From Xanthobacter autotrophicus Py2 (GTDB lineage: Bacteria > Pseudomonadota > Alphaproteobacteria > Rhizobiales > Xanthobacteraceae), in contig CP000781.1 in NCBI GenBank assembly GCA_000017645.1, positions 930,001 through 994,000 on the forward strand: DNA of 64,000 nt. Reading direction: 5' to 3'. The position numbers were made by a program, and so were the translations under genes. This document shows positions 34,501 to 62,369 of this stretch, one piece after another (the stretch's first letter is position 1; every line of letters starts with the position of its first letter). Under the pieces are notes generated by a model that saw only the letters and a program-made list of their open reading frames with translations, did no database searches and was not told the DNA's origin.

Positions 34501-35040
34501 TCAGGCGAATTCCTGCGCCACCTCAGTGAGGAAGCCGGAGACATAGGGCGCGAACGAGCGCCAGCATTCCACCCGGAAGCCGGTTCCCAGCCGCACCACC
34601 ACCACGTCGGCCTTGCCCAGCAGGGTGCGGGTGGCTGAGCCTTCAGGGAAGGCGGCGTCGGACAGGTCCAGCGCGATGCCGGCGTTCAGCACGTCCGCCG
34701 CATGGGGGCCGGTGACGGCGATGCCCACGTTGCGGTGGCCCACGGCCACCAGCGAGAAGAAGCGGCCCGCAAGAGCCGCCTCCAGTGCCGCCTGGGCGGC
34801 AGCGCCTTCGCCTTCGGGCAGCACCAGCAGCCATTCGTCGGGGCCGAGCCGGGCGGCGAAGTGCTCCGGCGTGCCGTGGGCGGTGTTGAGGGCGCCCGAC
34901 AGGTCGAAGCCGCCAGCAGTGCCCGAAAAACCTCTCAGCCGCAGCACGAAGCGGTCGGCCGGGGGCAGGGGGGAGACGATGCCGCCGGTGCCTGCAGGCA
35001 GGGCGGGGGTGCGGCGGGCGATAGTCGGGGTATCAAGCAT
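34501..35040 (-). CDS. soxG: Sarcosine oxidase gamma subunit
   Basis: 179 residues from ATG 35040, with GGAAGGAG seven bases upstream. It has the SoxG pattern: FVLRLRGFSG, LGPDEWLLVLP, ALAGRFFSLVAVGHRNVGIAVTG (in two parts) and GFRVECWRSFAPYVSGFL at the C-terminus. It is the smallest large-complex subunit of heterotetrameric sarcosine oxidase and resembles a piece of the GcvT fold. It overlaps the soxA stop by eight bases and is last in the soxBDAG order. Confidence 0.9.
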   Translation of the reverse strand: MLDTPTIARRTPALPAGTGGIVSPLPPADRFVLRLRGFSGTAGGFDLSGALNTAHGTPEHFAARLGPDEWLLVLPEGEGAAAQAALEAALAGRFFSLVAVGHRNVGIAVTGPHAADVLNAGIALDLSDAAFPEGSATRTLLGKADVVVVRLGTGFRVECWRSFAPYVSGFLTEVAQEFA

Positions 35041-38000
35041 GGAGCGCTCCTTCCGTCTGGACGCCATTCACGCGCTTGCCTTCGGGATCGACGAACACCG
35101 GCTCGGTCACGGTCACGGCCGTGAAGCCGGTGGGGGTGGTGACGTGCAGGGTCTGCCCCATGCGCGCCCGCCCGCCGGCAACCAGCGCCAGCGCGATGGG
35201 CTGGTCGAGGCTCGGGCTGAGATAGGACGAGGTGACGTGCCCCAGCATGGTCATGGGCACCTTTTGGGCCGGATCGGCGACGATCTGCGCCCCCTCGTCC
35301 AGCACCGTGCGCCCGTCGACGCTGGCAAGGCCCACCAGTTGCTTGCGGTCGGCCAGCGCCATGTCCGGGCGCGCCAGCGAGCGCTTGCCCACGAAATCGC
35401 GCTTTAGCTTGGAGACCATGCCGGAGAGGCCGAGATCGTCAGGCGTCACGGTGCCGTCGGTTTCCTGGCCGACGATGATGAAGCCGCGTTCCGCGCGCAG
35501 AACATGCATGGCCTCGGTGCCGTAGGGGGTGATGCCGAAGCGCTGGCCGTAGTCGAACAGCGCCTCCCACACCGCGCGGGCGTGGTCCGCCGGCACGTTG
35601 ATCTCAAAGCCCAGCTCGCCGGTGAAGGAGACGCGCATGAGCCTTGTCGGCACGCCGCAGATCTCCCCGACGCGCACCGCCATGTGCGGGAAGGCCGCGC
35701 CCGCGAGGTCGATGCCGGTGACGAAGGGCGCCAGCACGTCACGGGCGCGGGGGCCCTGAAGGGCGATCACCGCCCATTCCTCGGTGGTGGAGGTGGCGAA
35801 GACGTTGAGGTCCGGCCACTCGGTCTGGAGATAATCCTCCATGTGGGCGAGCACGCGCGGCGCGCCGCCGGTGGTGGTGGTCACATGGAACAGGTCGGGG
35901 GCAAGGCGCGCGACCACGCCATCGTCGAAGATGAAGCCGTCTTCCTTCAGCATCAGACCGTAGCGGCACTTGCCCGGTTCCAGCTTCAGCCAGGCATTGG
36001 GATAGATGCGGTTGAGGAATTCCGCCGCATCCGGCCCCTTCACCTCGATCTTGCCGAGCGTCGAGGCATCGAAGATGCCGACGCTTTCGCGCACCGCCTT
36101 GCATTCGCGCTTGACCGCCGCATGCATGTCTTCCCCCGCCTTGGGGAAATACCAGGCGCGGCGCCATAGCGAGACGTTCTCGAACCTGGCGCCATGCTCC
36201 ACCGCCCACTCATGCAGCGGGGCGGTGCGGATGGGGTCGAACAAGGCCCCGCGCGCCGAGCCGATGATGGCGCCGAAGGTCACCGGCGTATAGGGCGGGC
36301 GGAAGGTGGTGGTGCCCACCTGCGGGATGGGCTTTTCCAGGATCTCCGACAGCAGGCCCAGCGCCGCCATGTTGGAGGTCTTGCCCTGGTCGCTGGCCAT
36401 GCCGTTGGTGGTGTAGCGCTTCACATGCTCCACGCTCTCGAAGCCCTCGCGCACGGCAAGGCGGATGTCCTTGGCCGTCACGTCGTTCTGGAAGTCGAGG
36501 AAGGCGCGTACCTTCTTGGGATCATCGTCCGTGGGCAGCACCCGCGCCGGGGCAAAGCCCGTGGGGGTCGCCGGGGCGGCGGCGAACAGCCGGGAACCGC
36601 CCGCGCCCGCCGCGCCGCTGCCCGCCGCCCAGCCTTCGGCGAGGATTGAGCCGAGGTCGTAGGTGCCCTCGCAGGCGCCGGCGGAGCGCTCTTTCTGCAC
36701 CGAGATGCCGGGCACGAAGGCGTCGATCTCCGCGCGGAAGGCAAGCTTGCCGCGCGATTGGGAGAACAGGTGCACGGACGGCGTCCAGCCCCCCGAGACG
36801 CCGGCGCAGTCGCACGGCAGGGTGCGCCGCGCGCCGACGCCCTTGCCAGCGGTAAAGGGCGCGACGATGAGGCCGGTGAGCCCCTTGCCGCCGGTGGAGC
36901 CCACCACCGTGTGGCCGGCGAGGATCTCGATGCCCGAGACCCGCTCCTTCTCCGGGCCGATGGCGCTCAGGGGCCGGGTGTCCACGATGGTGACATCGAG
37001 CCCGGCGGCCTTGGCGTCCGCCGCTGCTTCATAGGCGGAAGCGCCGTTGGTGGCGAACACGATGCGCCGGCCCGGCGCCACCCCGTAGCGGTTGATGTAG
37101 GTGCGCACGCTTTCCGCCAGCATGATGCCGGGGCGGTCATTGTCGGCGAAGGAGAGCGGGCGCTCGTGGGCGCCGGTGGCGATCACCACTTCCTGCGGGC
37201 GCACCTGCCACAGCCGCTCGCGCGGCAGCTTGGGATCGGGCTTTTCCAGATGGTCGGTGACGCGCTCGGTCAGCACCACGTGGTTGTGGTTGTAATAGCC
37301 GAAGGCGGTAGTGCGCGGCAGAAGGGTGACGTTGGTGCGCCCAGCCAGCGTCGAAAGCGCCTGCGCCACCCATTGCGCGGCGGAGACGCCGTCGATGGTG
37401 GCGGTGCGTTCCGCGAGGAGGCTGCCGCCCATCTCCGCCTGTTCGTCGGCCAGGATCACGCGCTTGCCGGTCTCGGAGGCGGCCAGCGCTGCGGCGAGGC
37501 CGGCCGGCCCCGCGCCCACCACCAGCACGTCGCAATGGGCATTCCGGTGCACGTAGCGGTCGGCGTCCGCCACGTCCGGCGCTACGCCGAGGCCGGCGGC
37601 GGCGCGGATCTTGGGCTCGTAGAGCTTGTCCCAGAACGAGCGCGGCCACATGAAGGTCTTGTAGTAGAAGCCCGCCACCAATACTGGCGACAGGCGGTCG
37701 TTGACTGCGCCGATGTCATGCTCCAGCGAGGGCCAGTGGTTCTGCGAGGACAGCTTCAGCCCGCCCACCGCCTCGATCACCGTGGCGCGGTTGTTGGGGT
37801 CGGCGCGGCCGGGGCCGCGGTCTACCTTCAGCAGCGCGTTGGGCTCGTCGGCGCCGTGGGTGAGGATGCCGCGCGGGCGGTGATACTTGAACGAGCGGCC
37901 CACCAGGCGGATGCCGTTGGCGAGCAGGGCGGAGGCCACCGTGTCGCCGGCAAAGCCCTCAACGGTCTTGCCGTTGAAGGTGAAGGCCAGCGGCCGAGCG

Positions 38001-38044
38001 CGGTCGATGCGGCCGCCGGTGGGGAGGCGATTGGATTGGGCCAT
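35033..38044 (-). CDS. soxA: Sarcosine oxidase alpha subunit
   Basis: 1003 residues, the normal length. An N-terminal ferredoxin-like module (about 1-110, FTFNGKTVEGFAGDTVASAL) is followed by a dinucleotide-binding domain (DVLVVGAGPAGLAAALAASE, about residue 175) that binds NAD in this family. A C-terminal GcvT-like domain (about 600-1000, with YGLMLKEDGFIFDDGVVARL and ELGFEINVPADHARAVWEAL) passes the methyl-derived formaldehyde to tetrahydrofolate. Together with SoxB, SoxD and SoxG it oxidises sarcosine to glycine, 5,10-methylene-THF and H2O2. One base separates it from soxD. Confidence 0.95.
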   Translation of the reverse strand: MAQSNRLPTGGRIDRARPLAFTFNGKTVEGFAGDTVASALLANGIRLVGRSFKYHRPRGILTHGADEPNALLKVDRGPGRADPNNRATVIEAVGGLKLSSQNHWPSLEHDIGAVNDRLSPVLVAGFYYKTFMWPRSFWDKLYEPKIRAAAGLGVAPDVADADRYVHRNAHCDVLVVGAGPAGLAAALAASETGKRVILADEQAEMGGSLLAERTATIDGVSAAQWVAQALSTLAGRTNVTLLPRTTAFGYYNHNHVVLTERVTDHLEKPDPKLPRERLWQVRPQEVVIATGAHERPLSFADNDRPGIMLAESVRTYINRYGVAPGRRIVFATNGASAYEAAADAKAAGLDVTIVDTRPLSAIGPEKERVSGIEILAGHTVVGSTGGKGLTGLIVAPFTAGKGVGARRTLPCDCAGVSGGWTPSVHLFSQSRGKLAFRAEIDAFVPGISVQKERSAGACEGTYDLGSILAEGWAAGSGAAGAGGSRLFAAAPATPTGFAPARVLPTDDDPKKVRAFLDFQNDVTAKDIRLAVREGFESVEHVKRYTTNGMASDQGKTSNMAALGLLSEILEKPIPQVGTTTFRPPYTPVTFGAIIGSARGALFDPIRTAPLHEWAVEHGARFENVSLWRRAWYFPKAGEDMHAAVKRECKAVRESVGIFDASTLGKIEVKGPDAAEFLNRIYPNAWLKLEPGKCRYGLMLKEDGFIFDDGVVARLAPDLFHVTTTTGGAPRVLAHMEDYLQTEWPDLNVFATSTTEEWAVIALQGPRARDVLAPFVTGIDLAGAAFPHMAVRVGEICGVPTRLMRVSFTGELGFEINVPADHARAVWEALFDYGQRFGITPYGTEAMHVLRAERGFIIVGQETDGTVTPDDLGLSGMVSKLKRDFVGKRSLARPDMALADRKQLVGLASVDGRTVLDEGAQIVADPAQKVPMTMLGHVTSSYLSPSLDQPIALALVAGGRARMGQTLHVTTPTGFTAVTVTEPVFVDPEGKRVNGVQTEGALHA

Positions 38045-38045
38045 C

Positions 38046-38339
38046 TCACTTGCCTCCTTCAGTTGGGAGCGCAGGGCGCGGCTGGCCCATCTCGTAGCTG
38101 GCGAGGAAGCTGTCGCTCACGGTGTTGCGCAGGGCGTTGAACCAGCGGCCGCAGCCGTGGGAATGCAGCCAGCGCTCGGCATGCACGCCCTTGTTGCTGG
38201 TGCGCACGAAGAGATAGTCCGCCCACCGGGCGTCATCGAGGGCGCTGGGGTCGGCCGGGCGGGCGATATGGGCCTCGCCGCCGCAGTGGAATTCCACCTC
38301 GGGGCGCGGTCCGCAATAGGGGCAGGGAACGAGGAGCAT
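38046..38339 (-). CDS. soxD: Sarcosine oxidase delta subunit
   Basis: 97 residues. Zinc-binding start LLVPCPYCGPRPEVEFHCGG, giving three Cys plus His as in SoxD. The later HGCGRWFNALRNTVSD with the HGCxRWF signature completes the family pattern. It is a small structural subunit of the oxidase complex. The start ATG lies 11 bases after the soxB stop, and GAGCATG-type sequence is tight around it. Without its zinc site the complex is not expected to assemble, judging from the family. Confidence 0.94.
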   Translation of the reverse strand: MLLVPCPYCGPRPEVEFHCGGEAHIARPADPSALDDARWADYLFVRTSNKGVHAERWLHSHGCGRWFNALRNTVSDSFLASYEMGQPRPALPTEGGK

Positions 38340-38350
38340 GGTGCGAATCC

Positions 38351-39604
38351 TCAGTGGGCAACGGCCGCCGCCGCTGCCTCGTCGATGAGGCGGCCGGTGC
38401 GGAAGCGGTCGAGGGTGAAGGGGGCGTTGATGGGGTGGGGCTCGTCGCGGGCGATGGTGTGGGCGAACACATGGGCCGAGCCCGGCGTCGCCTTGAAGCC
38501 GCCGGTGCCCCAGCCGCAATTCACATAGAGCCCCTTCACCGGCGTCTTGCCGGTGATGGGTGAGCGGTCCGGCGTCACATCCACGATGCCGCCCCAGGAG
38601 CGCAGCATCTTCATGCGGGTGAATTGCGGGAACAGCTCGCAGATGGCGTCCAGCGTGTGGGTGGTGATGTGCAGGCCGCCCTGCTGGCTGTACGACACAT
38701 ACTGGTCGGTGCCCGCGCCGATCACGAGTTCGCCCTTGTCGGACTGCGAGATGTAGGCGTGCACCGCGTTCGACATGAGCACGCAGGAAAAGCACGGCTT
38801 CACCGGCTCGGACACCAGCGCCTGCAGCGGGAAGCTCTCCAGCGGCATGCGCACCCCGGCCATGCCCATCACCATGGAGGTGTGGCCGGCCACCGAGACG
38901 CCGATCTTCTTTGTCTTGATGGCGCCGCGGGAGGTTTCCACCCCCGTCACCGCGCCGTCCGGGCCGCGGGTGATGGCGGTGACCTCGCAATTCTGGATGA
39001 TGTCCACGCCCAGCGCATCGGCGCCGCGGGCATAGCCCCACACCACCGCATCATGCCGCGCCGTGCCGCCGCGCCGCTGCAGCGCCGCGCCCATCACCGG
39101 ATAGCGGATGTCCGGGGAGATGTTCAGCGGCGGGCAGAACTCCTTGGCCTGTTCCGGCGTCATCCACTCGTTGTCGATGCCGTTGAGCCGGTTGGAATAG
39201 ACGTGGCGTTTGAAGCTCTGCACGTCGTGCGCGTTGTGCGCCAGCATCAGCACGCCGCGCTGGGAGAACATGACGTTGTAGTTCAGCTCCTGGGATAGTC
39301 CTTCCCACAGCTTCACCGCGTGCTCGAACAGTGCTGCGCTTTCGTCATAGAGATAATTGGAGCGGATGATGGTGGTGTTGCGCCCGGCATTGCCGCCGCC
39401 GATCCAGCCCTTTTCCAGCACCGCGATATTGGTGAGGCCGTGTTCCTTGGCGAGATAATAGGCGGCGCCCAGTCCGTGGCCGCCACCGCCGATGATGATG
39501 GCATCATAGGCGGCCTTCGGCGTAGGGTTGCGCCACTGGCGCTCCCAGCCCTGGTGGCCGTTGAGGGCTTCGGTAAGCAGCGAGGAAATGGAAAAGCGGC
39601 GCAT
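38351..39604 (-). CDS. soxB: Sarcosine oxidase beta subunit
   Basis: 417 residues from ATG 39604 ([14 protein letters not shown]), the usual SoxB start; a GTG at 39613 is less likely. FAD-binding Rossmann motif [20 protein letters not shown], then [21 protein letters not shown]184 in [15 protein letters not shown] is the likely site of covalent FMN, by analogy with characterised enzymes. This subunit performs sarcosine oxidation. It is the first gene of the soxBDAG run, 323 bp from glyA; a REP-like element fills part of that gap. Confidence 0.95.
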
Positions 39605-39744
39605 GGGCCTCACGTCCTTGTTCTTGAGCCAGGATGCGCCCGGCCGGGGTGGCGTTCTCGTTCAAATGCGACCGGATTCTGGAATGGATGCGACGGGGGT
39701 GGGGAGGCGGCTGGCGCCGAGGCACAGGGCGAACACCTCAACCA

Positions 39745-39862
39745 CCCGTCATGGTCGGGCTCGTCCCGGCCATCCACGCCGTTCCGCCTGCGCGCCGTTC
39801 GACATTTTGCGCCCTGCCGTGCCGCGTGGATGCCCGGCACAGGGCCGGGCATGACGGCGGTT
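39745..39862. repeat. REP/BIME-like palindromic element, copy 2
   Basis: About 118 bp between soxB and glyA. It starts ACCCGTCATGGTCGGGCTCG, has GGCCATCCACGCC, then CGCGTGGATGCCCGGC, and ends GGGCATGACGGCGGT. It has the same bipartite plan as copies 1, 3 and 4. Here it lies inside an operon-like run, so it may affect mRNA stability between glyA and soxB. Confidence 0.88.
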
Positions 39863-39927
39863 CAAGGGGGTAGCGGCGCTCCTGCCCTCCCTCCGCTCAC
39901 GCTTTAGTCGGCAGGGACACGGGCCCC

Positions 39928-41202
39928 TCACATCCCCGCATAGAGCGGGAAGCGGGCGCACAGCTCGGCCACCCTGGCGCGGGTCGCCACCTCCGCCTTG
40001 CCGTTGGCTTCGGCGCCATTGGCCGCAAGGCCGGTGAGCACGTCGGCGATGAGGTCGCCGACCTCTTCGAACTCGGCGATGCCGAAGCCGCGCGTGGTGC
40101 CGGCCGGGGTGCCGAGGCGGATGCCCGAGGTCACGAACGGCTTTTCCGGATCGAACGGGATGCCGTTCTTGTTGCAGGTGAGGCCGGCTCGCTCGAGAGC
40201 GGCTTCCGCCGCCTTGCCGGTGACGCCGAAGGGCCGCAGGTCCACCAGCACCATGTGGCTGTCGGTGCCTCCCGAGACGATGGCCGCCCCGCGCTCGGAC
40301 AGCCGGCCGGCCAGCGCCCGCGCGTTGGAGACCACCTTGAGCGCATAGGTGCGGAAATCGTCGGTGAGGGCCTCGCCGAAGGCCACCGCCTTGGCCGCGA
40401 TCACATGCATCAGGGGGCCGCCCTGGAGGCCGGGGAAGACCGCCGAGTTCAGCTTCTTCGCTAGCGCCTCGTCATTGGTAAGGATGAGGCCGCCGCGCGG
40501 TCCGCGCAGGGTCTTGTGGGTGGTGGTCGTCACCACGTGGGCATGGGGGAAGGGGGAAGGATAGGCCCCCGCCACGATGAGCCCGGCATAGTGGGCCGCA
40601 TCCACCATCAGGTGCGCGCCCACCGCATCGGCGATGGCACGGAAGCGGGCGAAATCGATGATGCGCGGATAGGACGAGCCGCCGGCGATGATGAGCTTGG
40701 GCCTGTGCTCCTGCGCCAGGCGCTCCACCTCGTCATAGTCGATGAGTGCGTTGTCGCGCGTCACGCCATAGCCGATGGCCTTGAACCACTTGCCGGAGAG
40801 CGTGGGCGGCGCGCCGTGGGTGAGATGCCCGCCCGCCGCCAGCGACATGCCGAGCAGGGTGTCGCCGGGCTGGAGCAGGGCCATCAGCACCGCCGCATTG
40901 GCCTGCGCGCCCGAGTGCGGCTGCACATTGGCGAAGCCGGCGCCGAACAGCGCCTTGGCGCGGGCGATGGCGATCTCCTCCACCACGTCCACATGCTCGC
41001 AGCCGCCGTAGTAGCGCTTGCCCGGCAGGCCCTCGGCATACTTGTTGGTGAGCACCGAGCCCTGCGCCGCCAGCACCGCCTCGGACACGATGTTCTCCGA
41101 GGCGATCAGCTCGATCTGGTCCTGCTGGCGCTTCAGCTCGGCGCGGATGGCGTCGAACACGGCGGGGTCGGCGGCGTGGGTCGGGGCAACGTGAAGGGTC
41201 AT
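39928..41202 (-). CDS. glyA: Serine hydroxymethyltransferase
   Basis: 424 residues. PLP-dependent enzyme interconverting serine and glycine with tetrahydrofolate. Family marks: [39 protein letters not shown], and the PLP-lysine motif [14 protein letters not shown]. In this setting it would combine the glycine and 5,10-methylene-THF made by sarcosine oxidase into serine. A glyA copy beside soxBDAG is also seen in Pseudomonas sarcosine operons. A separate housekeeping copy probably exists elsewhere. Confidence 0.95.
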
Positions 41203-41245
41203 GGGCGTTGGTCCTTCTGGAAGGGATGGGGATGGGCGGGGCGGC

Positions 41246-42592
41246 TCAGCATTCCGGCACGTTGACCGCGAGGCCGCCCTGCGAGGTTTCCTTGTATTTG
41301 GACTGCATGTCGGCGCCGGTCTGGCGCATGGTCTCGATCACCTGGTCCAGGGAGACGTGGTGGATGCCGTCGCCGCGCAGCGCCAGCGAGGCCGCCGCGA
41401 TGGCCTTGTTGGCGCCGAAGGCGTTGCGCTCGATGCACGGGATCTGCACCAGCCCGCCGATGGGGTCGCAGGTCATGCCGAGGTGATGTTCCATGGCGAT
41501 CTCGGCGGCGTTCTCGATCTGCGCCGGGCTTGCCCCCAGCACTGCCGCGAGTCCCGCCGCCGCCATGGAGGCGGCCGAGCCCACCTCGCCCTGGCAGCCC
41601 ACCTCGGCGCCGGAGATGGAGGCGTTGCGCTTGATGAGCGCGCCCACCGCCGCTGCGGTCAAAAGGAAGTCCCGCAACTGGGCGTGGCTCGTGTCGGGGC
41701 AGATGTCGCGCACATAGCGCAGCACCGCCGGCACGATGCCCGCCGCCCCATTGGTGGGGGCGGTGACGATGCGCCCGCCGGCGGCATTCTCCTCGTTCAC
41801 CGCCATGGCGAACACCGAGACCCAGTCCATGACCTCATGGGGCGGACGCTGGTTGGTGAGCCGATCGGCCTGCAGTTGGTCGTGGATTGCCCTGGCGCGC
41901 CGCTTCACCCGGAGCCGGCCGGGCAGGGCGCCCTCGCGGGCAAGGCCCCGGTCGATGGAGGCGAACATGGCGTCCAGAATGGCATCCAGCCCCCGCTCCA
42001 CGTCTTCGCGCGGGCGCAGGGCGCATTCGTTGGCCATCTGCAGATCGGCGATGGAGAGTTGCGCGCGGGCGCAGGCGGAGAGCAGCTCCGCCGCCGTGGC
42101 GAAAGGGTGGGGCACGTCCTGCGCCGGCGCCTCGCGGGTCTCACCCTCCTCCACCACGAAGCCACCGCCGATGGAATAGAACACACGTTCTTCGAGGGTC
42201 GCGCCGTCTTCTCCAAATGCGCGGAAGCGCATGCCGTTGGAGTGGAGCGGCAGCAGGGTGGCGAAATCGAAGATCAGGTCGCGCTCGGTATCGAAGGCGA
42301 TGCGCGCGCCGCCGGCCTCGATGAATTTCTGGATGGCGAGGCGCGCGGTGAGCACCGGCACCTCGTCCGGGTCGAGCGTATCGGGCGCGGCGCCCATGAG
42401 GCCGAGCCAGATGGCGGTGTCGGAGCCATGGCCCTTGCCGGTCCAGGCCAGCGAGCCGAACAGTTCCGCCGTGACGCGCCGGGTGCCCTGCGGCAGCCCC
42501 TCGCGAAACCGCCGCGCCGCCACCATGGGCCCCACCGTGTGCGACGAGGACGGCCCGATGCCGATCTTGAAGAGGTCGAACACGCTGATCAT
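41246..42592 (-). CDS. sdaA: L-serine ammonia-lyase (iron-sulfur type)
   Basis: 448 residues from ATG 42592 ([19 protein letters not shown]), the standard start. Single-chain 4Fe-4S serine dehydratase that gives pyruvate and ammonia. Motifs: [11 protein letters not shown] near the N-terminus, [31 protein letters not shown], and [20 protein letters not shown]; the cysteines in the last two blocks are the expected cluster ligands. It lies 43 bp upstream of glyA on the same strand and would drain the serine produced there. An upstream extension of the frame (to 42781) is Pro/Arg-rich and not part of the family. Confidence 0.94.
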
Positions 42593-42822
42593 CCGTTGCC
42601 TCTGGTTTGAAGGTGGGGCGCGCTGGAACCCTCTCCCGCTCGCGGGACAGGACGGGTGGGGGAAGCGGTGCTTTTCACGCGGCGCCGGAGTGGGTGGCGC
42701 GGACCGGCCACTCCCCACCCGCCCGCCCGGTCTTGACCTGCCCCCCGGACGGGGCCGATGCTGTGATACTGCCTGCCGCAAGCGCCTTGATCTCGGCGTG
42801 GTGCGACCCCTGTCTGGAACAG

Positions 42823-52782: not shown

Positions 52783-52878
52783 AGATGAGCAGGGCGGGCG
52801 AGCGCGCGAGCGGGCTGTGAAACCCTGTTGGATATTCGCTCAGATGGGTGCCTGAAGCCGTCCCAGGCGCATGATCGT

Positions 52879-52993
52879 CGTCATGGCCGGGCTTGACCGG
52901 ACCATCCACGCGGCCAGGCTGGGAATGAGGTTCGAACGCATCCCCAAGCGGCTCGGCGTGGATACCCCGAACAAGCCCGGGCATGACGGGGGC
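52879..52993. repeat. REP/BIME-like palindromic element, copy 3
   Basis: About 115 bp. Left half CGTCATGGCCGGGCTTGACC with ACCATCCACGCGG; right half CGGCGTGGATACC and AAGCCCGGGCATGACGGGGG. It is more diverged than the other copies. It lies between the LysR gene and the end of the convergent D-aminoacylase gene. Confidence 0.82.
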
Positions 52994-53080
52994 GATTGCG
53001 GTCAGGTCTTTTTGAATTTTCAAACAGGTCCTGAGGCCCCGGCGGCCGAAAAGCCGCCGGAGACACGCCCGCCATCCCAA

Positions 53081-54820
53081 TCAGGACGGCAGGCGCCCCG
53101 CTGCGCCGCCGCGCACCAGGCGTCCGGGACGAGCGCCGGTATCCTCGCCGCCCTTCGTCACCCCGACGCCCTTCACATAGGTCGCCACATAGCCCTCGGC
53201 CTTCTGCATCAGGCGCTGGGCGCCATTAGGCAGGTCGTGGATCATGTGCAGCTTGCCGAGCTGCAGGTTGGGATAGTCGATGAGGTTGATGTCTGCGCGC
53301 AGGCCGGGGGCGATGCGGCCACGGTCCTTGAGGCCGTAGAAGCTCGCCGTGTCGAAGCTCTGCTTGCGCACGATGTGTTCCAGCGGCAGGCGAGGGCCGC
53401 GCTGGCGATCGCGCACCCAGTGGGTCAGCAGGAAGGTGGGCGCGCCCGCATCGCAGACGGTGGCCACATGCGCGCCGGCATCGCTGCCGCCGGGAATGGT
53501 GTGGGCGCTGCTGAGCAGGTCGTAGGTGGGGTCGAGGTTGCCGTCCGCATAACCCATGATGGGCCGGTGCAGGAAGCCCTTGCCGTCCTCGCTGAGGAGG
53601 ATGTCGAGGGCCACCTCGCGGGGGTCGCGGTTCTCGCGCTTGGCGATGGCGCGGATGCTGGTCTCCGGAGCCGGTTCGTAATTGGCCGGGTTGCTCAGGG
53701 GATAGACGCCGCGCCACTGGTTGAAGCCGGTGGGGAAGCCGAGCACATCGTTCACGCCCTCCAGCGCCATGGCCTTGCGCAGCTCGGGCTGGGCCTTGAG
53801 CCGGCCGACCATCTCGGCATAGGGCAGCTTCGACAGCTCCTTGTAGATGGGCGATTCGACGAACGCGTGGTGCCGGCTCTCGAGGCAGACCATCACCCCG
53901 ATGGAGCGGCAGAACATCTGCGGGCGCACCAGCGGGCCATTGCTGCCGGCCGGCGCCGTCTCGTCGAGCTGGGTGCGCCAGAAGCTGGGCTGGATGTGGT
54001 TCTGCCCCATCAGGAAGGTGATGGGGCAGCCGGTGCGCGCCGAGATCTCCTTCATCCAGGCGAGGTCGCGGGCCGGATTGACGATATCTTCGCCGAGCAG
54101 GCCCGCCGGCACCACTTCCATCACGCCGTGGCCACTGGCCACCACCGCCTCGGCGAAGGCGTACAGCTCCTCGAAGGTGGCGAAGGTGCCGGGCACCGGC
54201 TCGCCGTCCGTGGCGCGGTGCACAACGGTGCGCGAGGTGGTGAATCCGAGGGAGCCGGCGTCCTGCGCCTGCCGCACCATGGCGGCCATGGCGGCGATGT
54301 CCTCGGGGGTGGCGTCCTCGTTGGTCATGCCGCGCTCGCCCATGACATAACCGCGCAGGGGGCCATGGGCGATCTGGCAGCCGACATCGATGGCGAAATT
54401 GCGCCGACCGAGGAAGTCGAGATATTCGGGGAAGGTCTCCCAGCCCCAGCAGATGCCCTCGGACAGGGCGGTGCCGGGAATGTCCTCCACCCCCTCCATC
54501 ATCTGGATCAACCACTCGTGCCGGTCCGGCTTCACGGGGGCGAAGCCAACGCCGCAATTGCCTGAGATCGCAGTGGAAACGCCGTGCCAGAGCGAGGGGG
54601 CGAGCTGCTCGTCCCAGCTCATCTGACCATCATAGTGGGTGTGGATGTCGATCCAGCCGGGGGTGACGAGGAGGCCGTCCGCATCGACGGTTTCGCGCGC
54701 GGTGCCGCTGACCTTGCCGACCTCGACGATCACGCCGTCCTTGACTGCCACGTCGCCCGTGAACGATGGTGCTCCGGTGCCGTCCGCAATCTGCCCGCCC
54801 TTGATCAGCAGATCATACAT
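53081..54820 (-). CDS. N-acyl-D-amino-acid deacylase / D-aminoacylase-family amidohydrolase
   Basis: 579 residues. Zinc-dependent amidohydrolase family 3: an N-terminal beta sandwich ([20 protein letters not shown]), the metal-site [17 protein letters not shown], then [13 protein letters not shown], and late [20 protein letters not shown] with the final metal Asp/His. The length fits D-aminoacylase (about 500-580). Likely action is hydrolysis of an N-acyl-D-amino acid or a related cyclic amide; the exact substrate is not clear. It is divergent from the carrier-protein/FkbH cluster, with 236 bp between. No signal peptide is seen. Confidence 0.85.
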
Positions 54821-55056: not shown

Positions 55057-55335
55057 ATGTCGTGGGGTGCGCAAGTCGTGACGCTCGAACATCCAGACGT
55101 TTATGAAAGACTTACGGACGTGTTCCGTGATGTATTTCAGGACGATGATATTGTCTTGTTTCCAGAAATGACGGCCGCCGATGTCGACGGCTGGGACAGT
55201 CTGGCAAATATCAGGCTCATCCTGGCTGTGGAGACGGCCTTTTCGATTCGCCTTTCAGCGGCTCAGGCGGCCTCTCTTGCGAAGCTTGGAGATCTGGTCA
55301 ATCTGATTGCCAGTAAGATACAGCAAAAAAAATAA
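55057..55335 (+). CDS. Acyl carrier protein (DltC-like position)
   Basis: 92 residues; ATG 55057 or GTG 55078 could start it. Four-helix carrier-protein pattern with the phosphopantetheine attachment site DGWDSLANIRLI (Ser48), then a typical ending helix. Base composition is AT-richer than its neighbours, as is its promoter region. It precedes the FkbH-like gene and is its likely partner: FkbH-type enzymes load a glyceryl unit from 1,3-bisphosphoglycerate onto a carrier protein. Later genes (MBOAT, SGNH) suggest that the load is passed to a membrane acyltransferase. Confidence 0.88.
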   Translation: MSWGAQVVTLEHPDVYERLTDVFRDVFQDDDIVLFPEMTAADVDGWDSLANIRLILAVETAFSIRLSAAQAASLAKLGDLVNLIASKIQQKK

Positions 55336-55398
55336 TGTCTTAAAAACAAGGCTGAGGAATCGTGTATTGGGAGGACAGACCAAGAAGGGCTGGGGATT

Positions 55399-57312
55399 AT
55401 GGCGGCGATCTACCGGGACCTCGCGTGGTTACCTCGCGTTCAGGACTTTCGAAAGGCCTGCAAGGCCATAGGGGATGAGGGAGACTCATCCGCTTTTCGC
55501 AAGCTTGCGGGTTACTTTCTTGATGGGACGCAGCTCAATCGACTGGCGTCGCTCCTGCGGGCGGCCAGGCTGAAGGGCGATGTGGACCAGCAGCTTGCAT
55601 CGCTCCGGCTCGGCGTGATCGGCGACGGCACGCTGGACCTGCTGTTGCCCGCCATCGAGGCAACGGGCCTCCGCCACGGCTTGTCCATCGAAACCATCGG
55701 CTGCAACTATGGCCAGACCATCAATGAGGCCATGTCGGCCGAGTCGCGGCTGAACCAGAGCGGTTGCGACGCCATTCTCTTGGCGATGGACCACCGCGGT
55801 CTGCCGCTCAGTGCGCCCATCGGCGATGCTGCGACTGCGAAGCAGGCGGTGGATGCCGCCTATGACCTGATCCAGGAGCTGTGCGCTGCGCTGCGCAAGC
55901 ATAATCCTACCGCCCACATCGTCGTCCAGACTATCGCGCCGCCGCCGGAGACCCTGTTCGGCCACCTCGACCGGCGCCTCGCCGGCACGCAGCAGAACAT
56001 GGTCGGCAGCCTGAACCGCAGGCTCATCGACGCGCCGCCCATCGAGGGCTGCGTGATGTTCGACGTGGACGCGCTGGCGCGCACGGTCGGCCTTGCGGCA
56101 TGGCATGCGCCGACCCAGTGGAACATGGCGAAGCTGCCCTTCTCCATGGATTACGCCCCGCTCTATGCCGACCATCTGGGCCGGCTGCTGGCGGCGCTGA
56201 AGGGCAAGAGCCGGCGGGTGCTGGTGCTCGATCTCGACAATACGGTGTGGGGCGGCGTCATCGGCGACGACGGGATCGCCGGCATCAAGATCGGCGAAGG
56301 CGACGGCACCGGCGAAGCCTTCCTGAGCGTGCAGAGGCTGGCCCTGTCCCTGCGCGATCGCGGCATCGTGCTGGCGGTCTCGTCCAAGAATACGGACGCC
56401 GTGGCGCGCGCCGCCTTCCGCGACCATCCCGACATGCTGCTGCGGGAAGACCATATCGCCGTGTTCCAGGCCAACTGGAACGACAAGGCCACCAATATCA
56501 AGGCCATCGCGGACGAATTGTCCCTCGGCCTCGACAGCTTCGTGTTCCTGGACGACAACCCGGCCGAGCGCGACCTGGTGCGGCAATACCTGCCGCAGGT
56601 CGCCGTGCCGGAGCTGCCCGAGGACCCCGCGCTCTACGCCCGCACCCTGAGCGCCGCCGGCTATTTCGAGGCCACCCTGTTCTCCGAGGAAGACCGCAAG
56701 CGCGCCGCCTTCTACGAGGGCAACGCCCGCCGGGCCTCCCTGGGCCAGGGCGTGGCCAGCATCGACGACTATGTGGCCGCCCTCGACATGGAGATCGACC
56801 TGCGGCCGTTCGATGCCATCGGCCGCTCGCGCATCTACCAGCTCATCAGCAAGAGCAACCAGTTCAACCTCACCAGCCGCCGCTACAGCGAGGCCGACGT
56901 GAAGGCCATGGAGGAAGACCCCTCCATCTTCACCCTGCAGGTGCGGCTGAAGGACCGGTTCGGCGACAATGGCATGATTTCCGTGGTCGCCTGCCGGACC
57001 GTGGAGGGCAACCGCTGGCTCATCGACACCTGGCTGATGAGCTGCCGCGTGCTCGGGCGCGGCGTGGAGAAGATTGTCCTGCGCCACCTGGTCGAGGCGG
57101 CGCGGCGGCAGGGCATCGCCGAACTGGTCGGCGAATACCGCCCCACGGAGCGCAACGTCCTGGTGCGCGACCACTATGCCCAGCTCGGCTTCACGGCCCT
57201 ATCCATGGGCGCGGATGGCAACAGCCTCTGGACGCTGGAGACCAGCGTCGAGGTGCAAACCCCTCCCGTTCGCTATGCGAACGCGGCCCCGGAACTGATC
57301 GCCGCCGAGTGA
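55399..57312 (+). CDS. FkbH-like HAD-IIIC domain protein
   Basis: 637 residues. N-terminal SGNH-like region (about 60-250, with LGVIGDGTLDLLLPA), then a HAD-IIIC domain with LVLDLDNTVWGGVIGDDG (nucleophile D278, D280), the VSSKN motif and FLDDNPAERD. The C-terminal GNAT-like part runs to LVGEYRPTERNVLVRDHYAQLGF. FkbH enzymes convert 1,3-bisphosphoglycerate into glyceroyl-carrier protein in polyketide pathways. No polyketide synthase is nearby, so a non-PKS use of the same chemistry is likely. It is flanked by a carrier protein and an MBOAT gene. Confidence 0.9.
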   Translation: MAAIYRDLAWLPRVQDFRKACKAIGDEGDSSAFRKLAGYFLDGTQLNRLASLLRAARLKGDVDQQLASLRLGVIGDGTLDLLLPAIEATGLRHGLSIETIGCNYGQTINEAMSAESRLNQSGCDAILLAMDHRGLPLSAPIGDAATAKQAVDAAYDLIQELCAALRKHNPTAHIVVQTIAPPPETLFGHLDRRLAGTQQNMVGSLNRRLIDAPPIEGCVMFDVDALARTVGLAAWHAPTQWNMAKLPFSMDYAPLYADHLGRLLAALKGKSRRVLVLDLDNTVWGGVIGDDGIAGIKIGEGDGTGEAFLSVQRLALSLRDRGIVLAVSSKNTDAVARAAFRDHPDMLLREDHIAVFQANWNDKATNIKAIADELSLGLDSFVFLDDNPAERDLVRQYLPQVAVPELPEDPALYARTLSAAGYFEATLFSEEDRKRAAFYEGNARRASLGQGVASIDDYVAALDMEIDLRPFDAIGRSRIYQLISKSNQFNLTSRRYSEADVKAMEEDPSIFTLQVRLKDRFGDNGMISVVACRTVEGNRWLIDTWLMSCRVLGRGVEKIVLRHLVEAARRQGIAELVGEYRPTERNVLVRDHYAQLGFTALSMGADGNSLWTLETSVEVQTPPVRYANAAPELIAAE

Positions 57313-57315
57313 GAC

Positions 57316-58752
57316 ATGAGCGTCCCTTCCTTTGAGTTCTTCCTGTTCGCGCTGGTCGCGGCCGGGATCTACAATCTCGTCCCCATGGGCGTGGCGCGGC
57401 GGCTGGTGCTGCTGGTGGCGAACTTCGCCTTCCTGGCGACCTTTGCCACCACCGGCTACGATCTCATTCCCTATGCCGCGTTCCTCGCCATCGGCTACCT
57501 GTTCATCCGCGGTTGCGCGCCGATCCAGACCTCGTGGGCCTTCTGGTTCACGGTGGGCGCGACCATTCTGCTGTTCTGCTGGCTAAAGAAATATACTTTC
57601 CTGCCGGAGGCGAGTTTCCTGCACGTGGTCTATGTGCAGGTGGGCCTGTCCTATGTCTTCTTCCGGGTCCTGCACCTGGTGGTGGATGCCCATAGCGATG
57701 AACGGCTGCAGAAATTGTCACTCATCTCCTATCTCAATTTCACGCTGAACTTCACTGCCCTCGTGTCCGGCCCGATCCAGCGCTACGAGGATTACATCGA
57801 CTCCACCGAGACCCGTCCGCGTCCCCTCGACATGGGGGTTCTCGGCGAGGTGCTGGAGCGGTTGGTGGTCGGCTGCTTCAAGGTGTGGGCGGCGGCGGCC
57901 ATCGTCGCCGAGCTGCAGCACGCGCTCGAATTCCAGGTGGTGGAGGCGACCGGCCTGTTCACGCGCATCCTCTGTGCGGCGGGGCTTGCGGCGCTGTTCC
58001 CCATCTTCCTGTTCTACAATTTCTCCGGCTACACCGACGTGGTCATCGCCATCGCCCGGCTGTTCCGCATCGAACTGCCGGAGAATTTCAACAAGCCGTT
58101 CACCGCCGCCAGCTTCATCGACTACTGGAACCGCTGGCACATGTCGCTGTCGAACTGGCTGAAGACCTATGTCTACACGCCGCTGTTCGCCTCCATCATG
58201 CGCAATGTGAAGAACCCCAGGCTCCTGGCCTATGCCAGCGCGGTATCGCTGTTCGTCACCTTCTTCCTGATCGGCGCCTGGCACGGCCGCACGTCGGAAT
58301 TCTTCTTCTTCGGCTTCCTGAACGGCCTCGGGGTGGCGGTGAACCAGATCTACCGCACGATCCTGCAGGACAAGATGGGCCGCAAGCCCTATGCGGCGCT
58401 TAGCGCCCGCCCGCTCTACCGGTTCTTCGGCCGCGGCCTCACCTTCACCTGGGTGGCTTTCACCCTCCTGTGGTTCTGGTCGGACTGGGCGCAGCTGGCG
58501 GAGATCGCGCGCGGCATCGGCTTCGGCGGCGTGGTGGCGGCGGCGCTCATCCTCATCCTTGCCTCCTGCGTCGCGCTGCAGGCCCTGGTGACGGTGGATG
58601 CGCTGCTGCGCGGCCCCAAGCTCGACGGCCGGCCGCTGGTGCTGAGCCGCTATGCCCGCACGGTCTTCGTCACCGTGCTGGTGATGGGCGTGGTCACGGT
58701 GCAGAGCGTCATGACCTCGCCGGCGCCTGACATCGTCTACAAGGATTTCTAG
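57316..58752 (+). CDS. MBOAT-family O-acyltransferase (DltB-like)
   Basis: 478 residues, about 11 membrane helices. Family signatures: LNFTALVSGPIQRYEDYI, PENFNKPFTAASFIDYWNRW with H275 in WNRWHMSLSNWLKTYVY, and FFLIGAWHGRTSEFFFFG with the catalytic H323. This is the DltB/AlgI pattern of polytopic acyltransferases that move acyl groups across the inner membrane. It starts four bases after the FkbH-like stop. The acyl donor is probably the carrier protein encoded two genes upstream; the acceptor is unknown. Confidence 0.93.
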   Translation: MSVPSFEFFLFALVAAGIYNLVPMGVARRLVLLVANFAFLATFATTGYDLIPYAAFLAIGYLFIRGCAPIQTSWAFWFTVGATILLFCWLKKYTFLPEASFLHVVYVQVGLSYVFFRVLHLVVDAHSDERLQKLSLISYLNFTLNFTALVSGPIQRYEDYIDSTETRPRPLDMGVLGEVLERLVVGCFKVWAAAAIVAELQHALEFQVVEATGLFTRILCAAGLAALFPIFLFYNFSGYTDVVIAIARLFRIELPENFNKPFTAASFIDYWNRWHMSLSNWLKTYVYTPLFASIMRNVKNPRLLAYASAVSLFVTFFLIGAWHGRTSEFFFFGFLNGLGVAVNQIYRTILQDKMGRKPYAALSARPLYRFFGRGLTFTWVAFTLLWFWSDWAQLAEIARGIGFGGVVAAALILILASCVALQALVTVDALLRGPKLDGRPLVLSRYARTVFVTVLVMGVVTVQSVMTSPAPDIVYKDF

Positions 58753-58806
58753 CACGCGCCGGAACAGGCGGCCGCCTTCCCAGAATTTCGAGCCGGAGCA
58801 CACGAC

Positions 58807-59925
58807 TTGGAGCGTCGCGACTACTTCATCCTGCCCCTCATCGTGATCGCCACCGTGCTGGTGGTCGCCGTGCCGGTGGAAGCGGCGCTGCGCATCTTCT
58901 TCCCCTATTCGGAAGCCGACCGCTGCGTGGTCTATGGCGACCCGCGTCCCAGCGCCTTCCACGCGACGCCCAATTGCTCGTCCCGCATCAAGGTGCCGGA
59001 AGGCCCTTGGGTGGACATGAAATACAACGCATGCGGCTACCGCAGCACCGACCCGTGCACGCCGAAAAAGCCCGAGAGCCTGCGCCTCGCCGTCATCGGC
59101 AGTTCGCTGGCGGCGGGCTATCTCGTGCCCTACGACGAATCCGTGTCGGCCCGGGCGCGGGAAAGCCTCACCACCCTCTGCCGCCTGCCGGTGGATGTGC
59201 AGAACCTGGGCGCCGAGGGCAACATGGGCGTGCGCCTCACCGCCAGCGCGGAAGCCGCCGCCGCGCTCACGCCCGATGCCATCGTGCTGGTGGTCTCGCC
59301 CACCGACCTCGTGCTCGACAATGCGATGGACCAGGCGGCGCCGGCGCCCGGTGCCGTCGCCAAGCACCAGGCCGGCTGGATCCAGGAATTCAAGGCGCAG
59401 CTGTCCCGCTCGCGGCTGCTGTATATGGAATCCTACCTGCTGCTGCGGAACGACGACAATTACGTGCCCATCTACCGCCGGTCCGGCCACAAGGCCGATT
59501 TCATGCGGCTGCCGCTGTCGGAGGACTGGCAGGCGCGGCTTGCCCATCTCGACCGCGACATCTCGCGGGTGAGGGCTGCCATCGGCCCCGATATTCCGCT
59601 CATCATCCTGTTCGCGCCGGAGCGCGCGCAGGCCGCCATGCTGGCCGTGCCCCACCTCGCCAAGGGCATGGCGCCGGCCTACCTGCAGAGTGAAATCGCC
59701 CGCCGTGCGCAGGCCCATGGTGCGTATTTCGCCGACATGTCGCCGCTGATCCCGCCCGGCACCCCCTCGAGCGACATCTACTACGCCATGAACGGCCACC
59801 TGAACGGCGAGGGCCACGCCCTGCTGTCCGAAGCCCTCGTGGGCGGCCTGTTCAATGCGCACATTCCCGCCTTCACGTCCGCCTGCACTGCCCCTTCTGC
59901 TACCGCCGAGCTCAATCCCGGCTGA
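58807..59925 (+). CDS. Membrane-anchored SGNH/DltD-like protein
   Basis: 372 residues from TTG 58807, with GGAG eight bases upstream. One N-terminal membrane helix (about 8-28), then a periplasmic SGNH-like domain: nucleophile block IGSSLAAGY (Ser100), Gly block NLGAEGNMGV (Gly135), third block SPTDLVLDN, and NGHLNGEGHALL (His331). The expected block-I Asp, block-III Asn and block-V Asp read Ser99, Thr166 and Asn329. Position after an MBOAT gene matches DltD or the AlgJ/AlgX class. It probably hands the acyl group to, or trims it from, a surface glycan. Confidence 0.85.
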   Translation: MERRDYFILPLIVIATVLVVAVPVEAALRIFFPYSEADRCVVYGDPRPSAFHATPNCSSRIKVPEGPWVDMKYNACGYRSTDPCTPKKPESLRLAVIGSSLAAGYLVPYDESVSARARESLTTLCRLPVDVQNLGAEGNMGVRLTASAEAAAALTPDAIVLVVSPTDLVLDNAMDQAAPAPGAVAKHQAGWIQEFKAQLSRSRLLYMESYLLLRNDDNYVPIYRRSGHKADFMRLPLSEDWQARLAHLDRDISRVRAAIGPDIPLIILFAPERAQAAMLAVPHLAKGMAPAYLQSEIARRAQAHGAYFADMSPLIPPGTPSSDIYYAMNGHLNGEGHALLSEALVGGLFNAHIPAFTSACTAPSATAELNPG

Positions 59926-60084
59926 GCGCCGGGGCGCTGGGAGGAGCGTCGGCAGCCGCCGTGGCGGCCGCGGGGCGCCGCAATCTGCTCGGACAGCGGG
60001 TTGCGTTTCCTTAAGCTAGAGTGCGATTCGCCGGGCAGGCGGATCCGATGGCCCGGAAAACGCGCTCCAGCGGCAGGAACAGGA

Positions 60085-62177: not shown

Positions 62178-62253
62178 GCCGCGGTCCTTAAGCTTGCCCA
62201 TTGCCTATTTAGAGACCGGTTTGAAATTTAAAATGGGCATAAGCGCGATCACC

Positions 62254-62369
62254 CCATCATGCCCGGGCTTGTCCCGGGCATCCACGCCGATCCGCTTGCG
62301 CCAGCGCGCGAAAGCCGCTCCCGGCGCAGCCCGCGTGGATGGCCGGGACAAGCCCGGCCATGACGGCGG
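62254..62369. repeat. REP/BIME-like palindromic element, copy 4
   Basis: About 116 bp. Left half CATCATGCCCGGGCTTGTCC with GGGCATCCACGCC; right half GCGTGGATGGCCGGG and AAGCCCGGCCATGACGGCGG. Together with copies 1-3 it is one repeat family. It lies between the amidotransferase and livF genes. Confidence 0.88.

Follow-up and report, generated by a model that had tools for sequence, protein, structure and literature searches.

A Carrier Protein, FkbH, MBOAT, and SGNH Operon of Xanthobacter autotrophicus Py2 as a Candidate Acyl-Export System

The Operon and Its Four Proteins

The DNA considered here is a window of 64,000 nt from Xanthobacter autotrophicus Py2 (contig CP000781.1; the source genome comprises 5.6 Mb in 2 contigs), and positions are numbered within this window. 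At 55057-59925 of the forward (+) strand, the list of open reading frames (ORFs) contains four co-oriented genes encoding an acyl carrier protein (ACP), an FkbH-type protein, an MBOAT acyltransferase, and an SGNH protein, with intergenic gaps of 63, 3, and 54 bp. A sequence-only reading of the same DNA, which had placed on one strand a carrier with its site at Ser48, an FkbH protein, an MBOAT with His323, and an anchored SGNH protein, is confirmed in this respect, and the 3-bp gap that it had reported between the second and third genes is equally found, the FkbH gene ending at 57312 and the MBOAT gene starting at 57316. This gene set is confirmed to be more than a chance association, and its features are the following:

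55057..55335, +: acyl carrier protein, 92 amino acids (aa), phosphopantetheine site Ser48 (55198-55200) in Asp47-Ser48
55399..57312, +: FkbH-type protein, 637 aa, with an N-terminal domain, a HAD-IIIC phosphatase domain (Asp278, Asp280, Thr282, Lys363, Asp385, and Asp386, from the alignment), and a C-terminal GNAT-like domain
57043-57045, +: Cys549 of the GNAT-like domain motif Ser548-Cys549-Arg550
57316..58752, +: MBOAT O-acyltransferase, 478 aa, PF03062, His275 (58138-58140) and His323 (58282-58284)
58165..58227, +: MBOAT residues 284-304, replacing the PLGG(N/S) turn of other MBOATs and aligning to helix HC of DltB
58726..58749, +: C-terminal acyl-shuttle motif PDIVYKDF, MBOAT residues 471-478, Tyr475 at 58738-58740
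58807..59925, +: membrane-anchored SGNH protein, 372 aa, PF13472, Ser100 (59104-59106) and His331 (59797-59799)

The ACP gives weak matches to NCBIfam ACP families, with Asp47 and Ser48 invariant across 18 aligned ACPs. The FkbH-type protein scores 304.3 bits against TIGR01686, whose curated cut-off is 146.65, and thus belongs to this family; it also matches the PDB entry 3slr, and its domain layout is further backed by a predicted model and fold matches. The HAD residues and Ser548-Cys549-Arg550 are invariant in 48 aligned FkbH sequences, including 3 that come from plasmid loci of Streptomyces, two of which have ketosynthase genes. In assembly lines, FkbH proteins are described as loading glyceryl from 1,3-bisphosphoglycerate onto carriers (PMC8949500, PMC7489565, PMC3679948). 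A second, distant FkbH-domain protein of the source genome lies in stretch L136 (G000:C1:695000-714900), with 170 bits to TIGR01686, 54 bits to the window FkbH, and no ACP match in the stretch.

The SGNH protein has a single N-terminal transmembrane (TM) helix, its assignment is also backed by a predicted model and fold matches, and Ser100 and His331 are invariant in the alignment. Most catalytic residues of the four proteins are readable from the sequence. The SGNH partner was looked for in 25 loci with an FkbH-linked MBOAT, a set from which the duplicates L138 and L140 were removed, as was L130 with its FkbH at a distance of about 7 kb. In 21 of these an SGNH-like protein could be identified, mostly by reading the sequence for GxS and D/N-H motifs and a single TM helix. 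Recognition leans on this reading because Pfam misses most divergent partners; among 10 neighbours scanned, only the one in L179 touched an SGNH family (E 0.27). L180 and L188, which show an ORF of suitable size, helix, and motif by a crude pattern only, were left out of the 21.

Carrier-Type Segment, Shuttle Tail, and Distribution of the MBOAT

The window MBOAT aligns to the DltB structures 6bug and 8jem with E 4e-40, its His275 and His323 corresponding to DltB His289 and His336 (DltB numbering as used in PMC11035591), and His323 is conserved; the closest MBOAT in the protein search has 95% identity and a source name ending in 'Xanthobact'. In most MBOATs the two active His are spaced by 40 and enclose a PLGG(N/S) turn, whereas the spacing is 48 in the window MBOAT and 47 in DltB, where helix HC is reported to be the docking site of DltC (PMC11035591). 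In the alignment the GG turn is present in 1 of 26 FkbH-linked rows (L130) versus 74 of 80 others, and a spacing of at least 44 is found in 24 of 26 FkbH rows versus 4 of 80 others. The six non-FkbH rows without the turn are L070, L064, L020, L042, L044, and L084; of these, L070 adjoins a DltD gene, and the loci of L064 and L020 encode both an AMP-ligase and a carrier protein. Rows without the turn have a carrier protein detected in the locus in 25 of 31 cases, rows with it in 2 of 75; the sample is a selected one, the window ACP was added by hand, and kinship was not removed, though the two FkbH clades separate on the tree. The lost turn with the longer segment is a sequence mark that may predict feeding of an MBOAT by a carrier.

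At the other end of the protein, the tail IVYKDF is comparable to the C-terminal FXYXXF-type Tyr shuttle motif described on MBOATs (PMC12148441), with Tyr475 and Phe478 kept and Ile, Val, or Leu in the position of the first Phe. Pro471, Tyr475, and Phe478 are invariant in 30 rows of alignment A1, and of the 26 FkbH rows, 23 have the shuttle Tyr in the alignment and 3 are gapped there.

The pairing with FkbH recurs in several samples. A scan of named genomes with the MBOAT profile gave at least 7 loci with FkbH among the 80 matches listed; the holders among these matches are Pseudomonas sp. T1-3-2, Reyranella, Phaeospirillum, and Prochlorococcus, together with Eremiobacterota, Acidobacteriaceae, and Rhodocyclales metagenome-assembled genomes (MAGs). 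The MBOAT is present in 3 of 398 sampled phylum genomes (E 1e-60), all three with FkbH, and in 19 of 385 class genomes (E 1e-40), where FkbH stands in 10 of 18 loci besides the window's own; the class search was selected by the MBOAT alone, and the FkbH of L183 is only a 46-bit fragment at the end of a contig. When the profile score is at least 180 bits, FkbH is found in 15 of 15 loci (one place counted twice). Around the three other MBOATs of the source genome, the stop-to-stop ORFs of the surrounding 19.9-kb stretches contain no FkbH or ACP, and among 21 examined around G512 the sole find was the one already known.

In a quick tree of 106 MBOATs, from which ORFs below 330 residues were omitted along with L138 and L140, which cover the place of L180 and the Sinorhizobium meliloti region of L142, respectively, the 26 FkbH rows require 5 changes versus a shuffled mean of 23.3, with 0 of 500 shuffles as low. 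The rows L115, L130, L139, and L142 had been fetched via FkbH, which biases their label, and the tree was repeated without them (22 of 102 rows with FkbH, 4 changes versus 20.0 in shuffles, 0 of 500). The clade of the window has FkbH in 13 of 13 rows (SH-aLRT 96, and 98 in the reduced tree) and bears the labels of three phyla, Pseudomonadota, Acidobacteriota, and Vulcanimicrobiota, the Prochlorococcus copy (Cyanobacteriota) falling outside it. A second clade, which includes the S. meliloti plasmid pSymB, has FkbH in 9 of 9 rows (SH-aLRT 98), 3 of the 9 fetched by FkbH. Supported branches force at least 3 changes, so that the pairing must have arisen or disappeared more than once. Together with the SGNH counts, these clades bear out the joint conservation of the four genes on which the sequence-only reading depended.

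Proposed Pathway and Rival Explanations

The Dlt system (DltA-DltB-DltC-DltD-DltX) is responsible for the D-alanylation of teichoic acids. The window set shares with it a dedicated carrier, a DltB-related MBOAT (PDB 6bug) with a DltB-like segment between the two active His, and an anchored SGNH protein. In contrast, FkbH occupies the place of DltA, with no AMP-binding match among 18 window proteins scanned; the MBOAT has 172 bits versus the TIGR04091 DltB equivalog cut-off of 375; the SGNH protein has no match to Pfam DltD (PF04914) at E 1e-3, while the DltD beside the L070 MBOAT did match; and the shuttle Tyr is fused to the MBOAT, whereas in Dlt the motif is reported to reside on DltX (PMC12148441). 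Strict Dlt membership is rejected on the MBOAT score, the missing DltD match, and the lack of an AMP ligase among the scanned proteins; of the earlier proposal that the genes match DltC, DltB, and DltD, the Dlt-like logic with FkbH replacing DltA holds, and the strict identity of the three proteins does not.

The PatA/PatB- and AlgI/J/X-type pathways also have a C-terminal Tyr shuttle on the MBOAT and a separate SGNH protein; they are described as lacking a carrier protein and using an acyl-CoA donor (PMC12148441), whereas the window set encodes carrier and loader and its MBOAT is without the GG turn. The FkbH/ACP loaders of tetronate and methoxymalonate polyketides and of non-ribosomal peptide synthetase (NRPS) modules have the same FkbH residues and an adjacent free-standing ACP, but no polyketide synthase (PKS) or NRPS was found here and the carrier product would feed a membrane exporter. 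A polyketide context is rejected, the stop-to-stop ORFs of at least 200 aa in the window, L136, and L201-L203 containing no ketosynthase motif, which agrees with the earlier remark that polyketide genes are not near. Because the GG turn is absent, a segment like the DltC-docking one is present, and the Tyr is kept, the set appears to join Dlt-like carrier feeding to a PatA-like built-in shuttle, with FkbH for DltA, and is a clear candidate exception that joins both halves, the Dlt-type carrier and the PatA-type fused shuttle. In the open-access literature, surveyed mostly by titles and abstract openings, no description of an ACP-FkbH-MBOAT-SGNH system was recognised, in agreement with the sequence-only reading, to which no named system with this content was known; FkbH and MBOAT were met together in it only for cyanobacterial suomilide-type peptides, where they belong to separate steps (PMC13122637, PMC10143770).

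From the sequence comparisons, it is highly probable that the architecture is that of an MBOAT-SGNH exporter fed by a carrier that FkbH loads, and the transfer across the membrane that had been predicted earlier is supported. With somewhat less assurance, the whole set is probably a four-gene acyl-export system in which glyceryl is loaded by FkbH and esterifies an envelope polymer. FkbH would accept the glyceryl of 1,3-bisphosphoglycerate, strip its 3-phosphate, and load glyceryl on the phosphopantetheine of ACP Ser48; glyceryl-ACP would dock at the DltB-like segment of the MBOAT on the cytoplasmic face, and the MBOAT (His323) would move the acyl through its lumen onto Tyr475 of its own C-terminal tail; the periplasmic SGNH protein would then take the acyl from Tyr onto Ser100 and esterify a hydroxyl of the envelope polymer, most likely a polysaccharide. 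The earlier interpretation as a whole is partly supported. If true, envelope modification would draw directly on an intermediate of glycolysis and would need no ATP for an adenylating ligase, and the copy in Sinorhizobium meliloti 2011, a laboratory strain, makes the system testable.

The neighbours of some relatives point to envelope polysaccharides, whereas other loci and the window name no acceptor. In S. meliloti ml47 pSymB (L142 12810-17845; the same region in L140), genes for an MBOAT, an SGNH-like protein annotated as a TonB-dependent receptor, an ACP, and an FkbH lie 4-7 kb upstream of capsule export genes including RkpR; in Niveispirillum an FkbH-ACP pair adjoins a WcbI-type acetyltransferase, and in Rhodobacteraceae SC52 such a pair is near sulfotransferase and sulfate-activation genes. 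That close relatives always stand beside alginate or cellulose acetylation genes, the outcome named in advance as telling against the earlier interpretation, was not found in the loci inspected. One relative, L009 (an Acidobacteriaceae MAG), does have a BcsAB-type cellulose synthase at a distance of about 4 kb, and the partner protein of L012 matches the AlgX family.

Several observations weigh against glyceryl export to a polymer. The sequence gives no proof that 1,3-bisphosphoglycerate is the substrate of this FkbH. The GG turn is absent from L042, L044 (a contig of 3.3 kb), and L084, where no carrier was detected. In the SGNH family an acidic residue, in most cases Asp, stands two positions ahead of the catalytic His; the window protein and some of its relatives have Asn there, and no SGNH partner was recognised in L181, whose neighbour is transglutaminase-like, or in L115. 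Only 3 of 14 genus genomes have the MBOAT, the tree placement of the long branches L182, L011, L012, L181, L081, and L142 is unsure, and among 20 order-level FkbH loci, 19 of which have an ACP match (E <0.1), an MBOAT is in the stretch in 2, leaving 18 without one nearby (some on short contigs). Moreover, the window proteins scanned include no product of a glycan-synthesis gene neighbouring the operon, whose context therefore names no acceptor.

This last point would suit an acceptor that is a small molecule or membrane lipid, as would the suomilide-type clusters, in which an FkbH domain is found with an MBOAT proposed to acylate a sugar (PMC13122637, PMC10143770). There, the FkbH is an NRPS-loading domain serving a different step from the MBOAT, while the window MBOAT is paired, in the manner of polymer acylation systems (PMC12148441), with an anchored SGNH protein, and some relatives are near capsule or sulfation genes, which makes such an acceptor quite improbable. 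Rather less improbable, although still unlikely, is the same exporter with another acyl, either from a different acyl phosphate or from glyceryl altered on the ACP by O-methylation or by dehydration and reduction, which would chemically yield lactyl. In 53 FkbH loci (L138/L180 and L140/L142 being counted twice), tailoring candidates are represented by a methyltransferase family in 12, a VOC protein in 3, and a MaoC-SDR-type protein in 17, 9 of these above 200 bits and 8 weak (37-77 bits); six were confirmed by Pfam as MaoC plus SDR, and no MaoC-SDR match was found in the non-FkbH loci searched. Because relatives hold these genes, the acyl may differ between loci, but the window operon has none of them, and the MaoC-SDR of L012 found no match in the source genome, an empty search being weak evidence.

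Ordinary O-acetylation from acetyl-CoA, with ACP and FkbH as mere passengers, would be in line with the acetyl-CoA use of MBOAT-SGNH pairs such as PatAB (PMC12148441) and with the AlgI annotation of some homologues of the window MBOAT. It is rejected as very improbable because FkbH is kept clade-wide (13 of 13 members across three phyla) and because the MBOAT has the carrier-type form of the segment by which FkbH-linked and DltB-type MBOATs differ from most others.

Beyond glyceryl export in X. autotrophicus, a broader proposal is tentative and, taken jointly, rather doubtful: a general unrecognised envelope decoration in which FkbH captures a glycolytic acyl phosphate on a carrier, the acyl may be tailored on it (methylation, or MaoC dehydration and SDR reduction of glyceryl to lactyl), and delivery falls to interchangeable transferases (MBOAT-SGNH, perhaps WcbI-type), the lost GG turn telling carrier-fed from CoA-fed MBOATs. 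If true, it could explain ester-linked glycerate on some surface polysaccharides; glyceryl groups are known on exopolysaccharides, as L-glycerate in gellan (Kuo 1986, cited in PMC4432689).

Surroundings of the Operon and Further Observations

A possible end of the operon was called by a consensus scan alone, which in the scanned region returned 8 terminator-like sites versus 3.2 in shuffles:

59979..60005, +: terminator-like hairpin, 54 bases 3' of the fourth gene

In a Pfam scan the operon is flanked by an amidohydrolase on the opposite strand and a glutamine-synthetase-like gene, and farther to the left there are a GH18-like protein (5 kb away) and sarcosine, serine, and one-carbon genes; in particular, sarcosine oxidase-like, serine hydroxymethyltransferase, and serine dehydratase genes adjoin one another at 35033-42781. 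A dispersed repeat of about 110-160 bp is present at 52874-53030 and 62214-62368. The stretch 52871-54600 has 29 matches in the source genome (self included) and matches in 12 of 13 other genus genomes, nearly all through its first 170 bases with about 70-85% identity.

In the wider FkbH-ACP loci, proteins of the MaoC-dehydratase/SDR fusion type are near FkbH-ACP in L011, L012, L112, L113, L115, L120, L134, L135, and L141. On a Maritalea plasmid (L200 4822-7281), a long FkbH protein is located among pseB, nucleotide-sugar, and N-acetylneuraminate-synthase-type genes, a context that may indicate acylation of a nonulosonic acid or a similar sugar.

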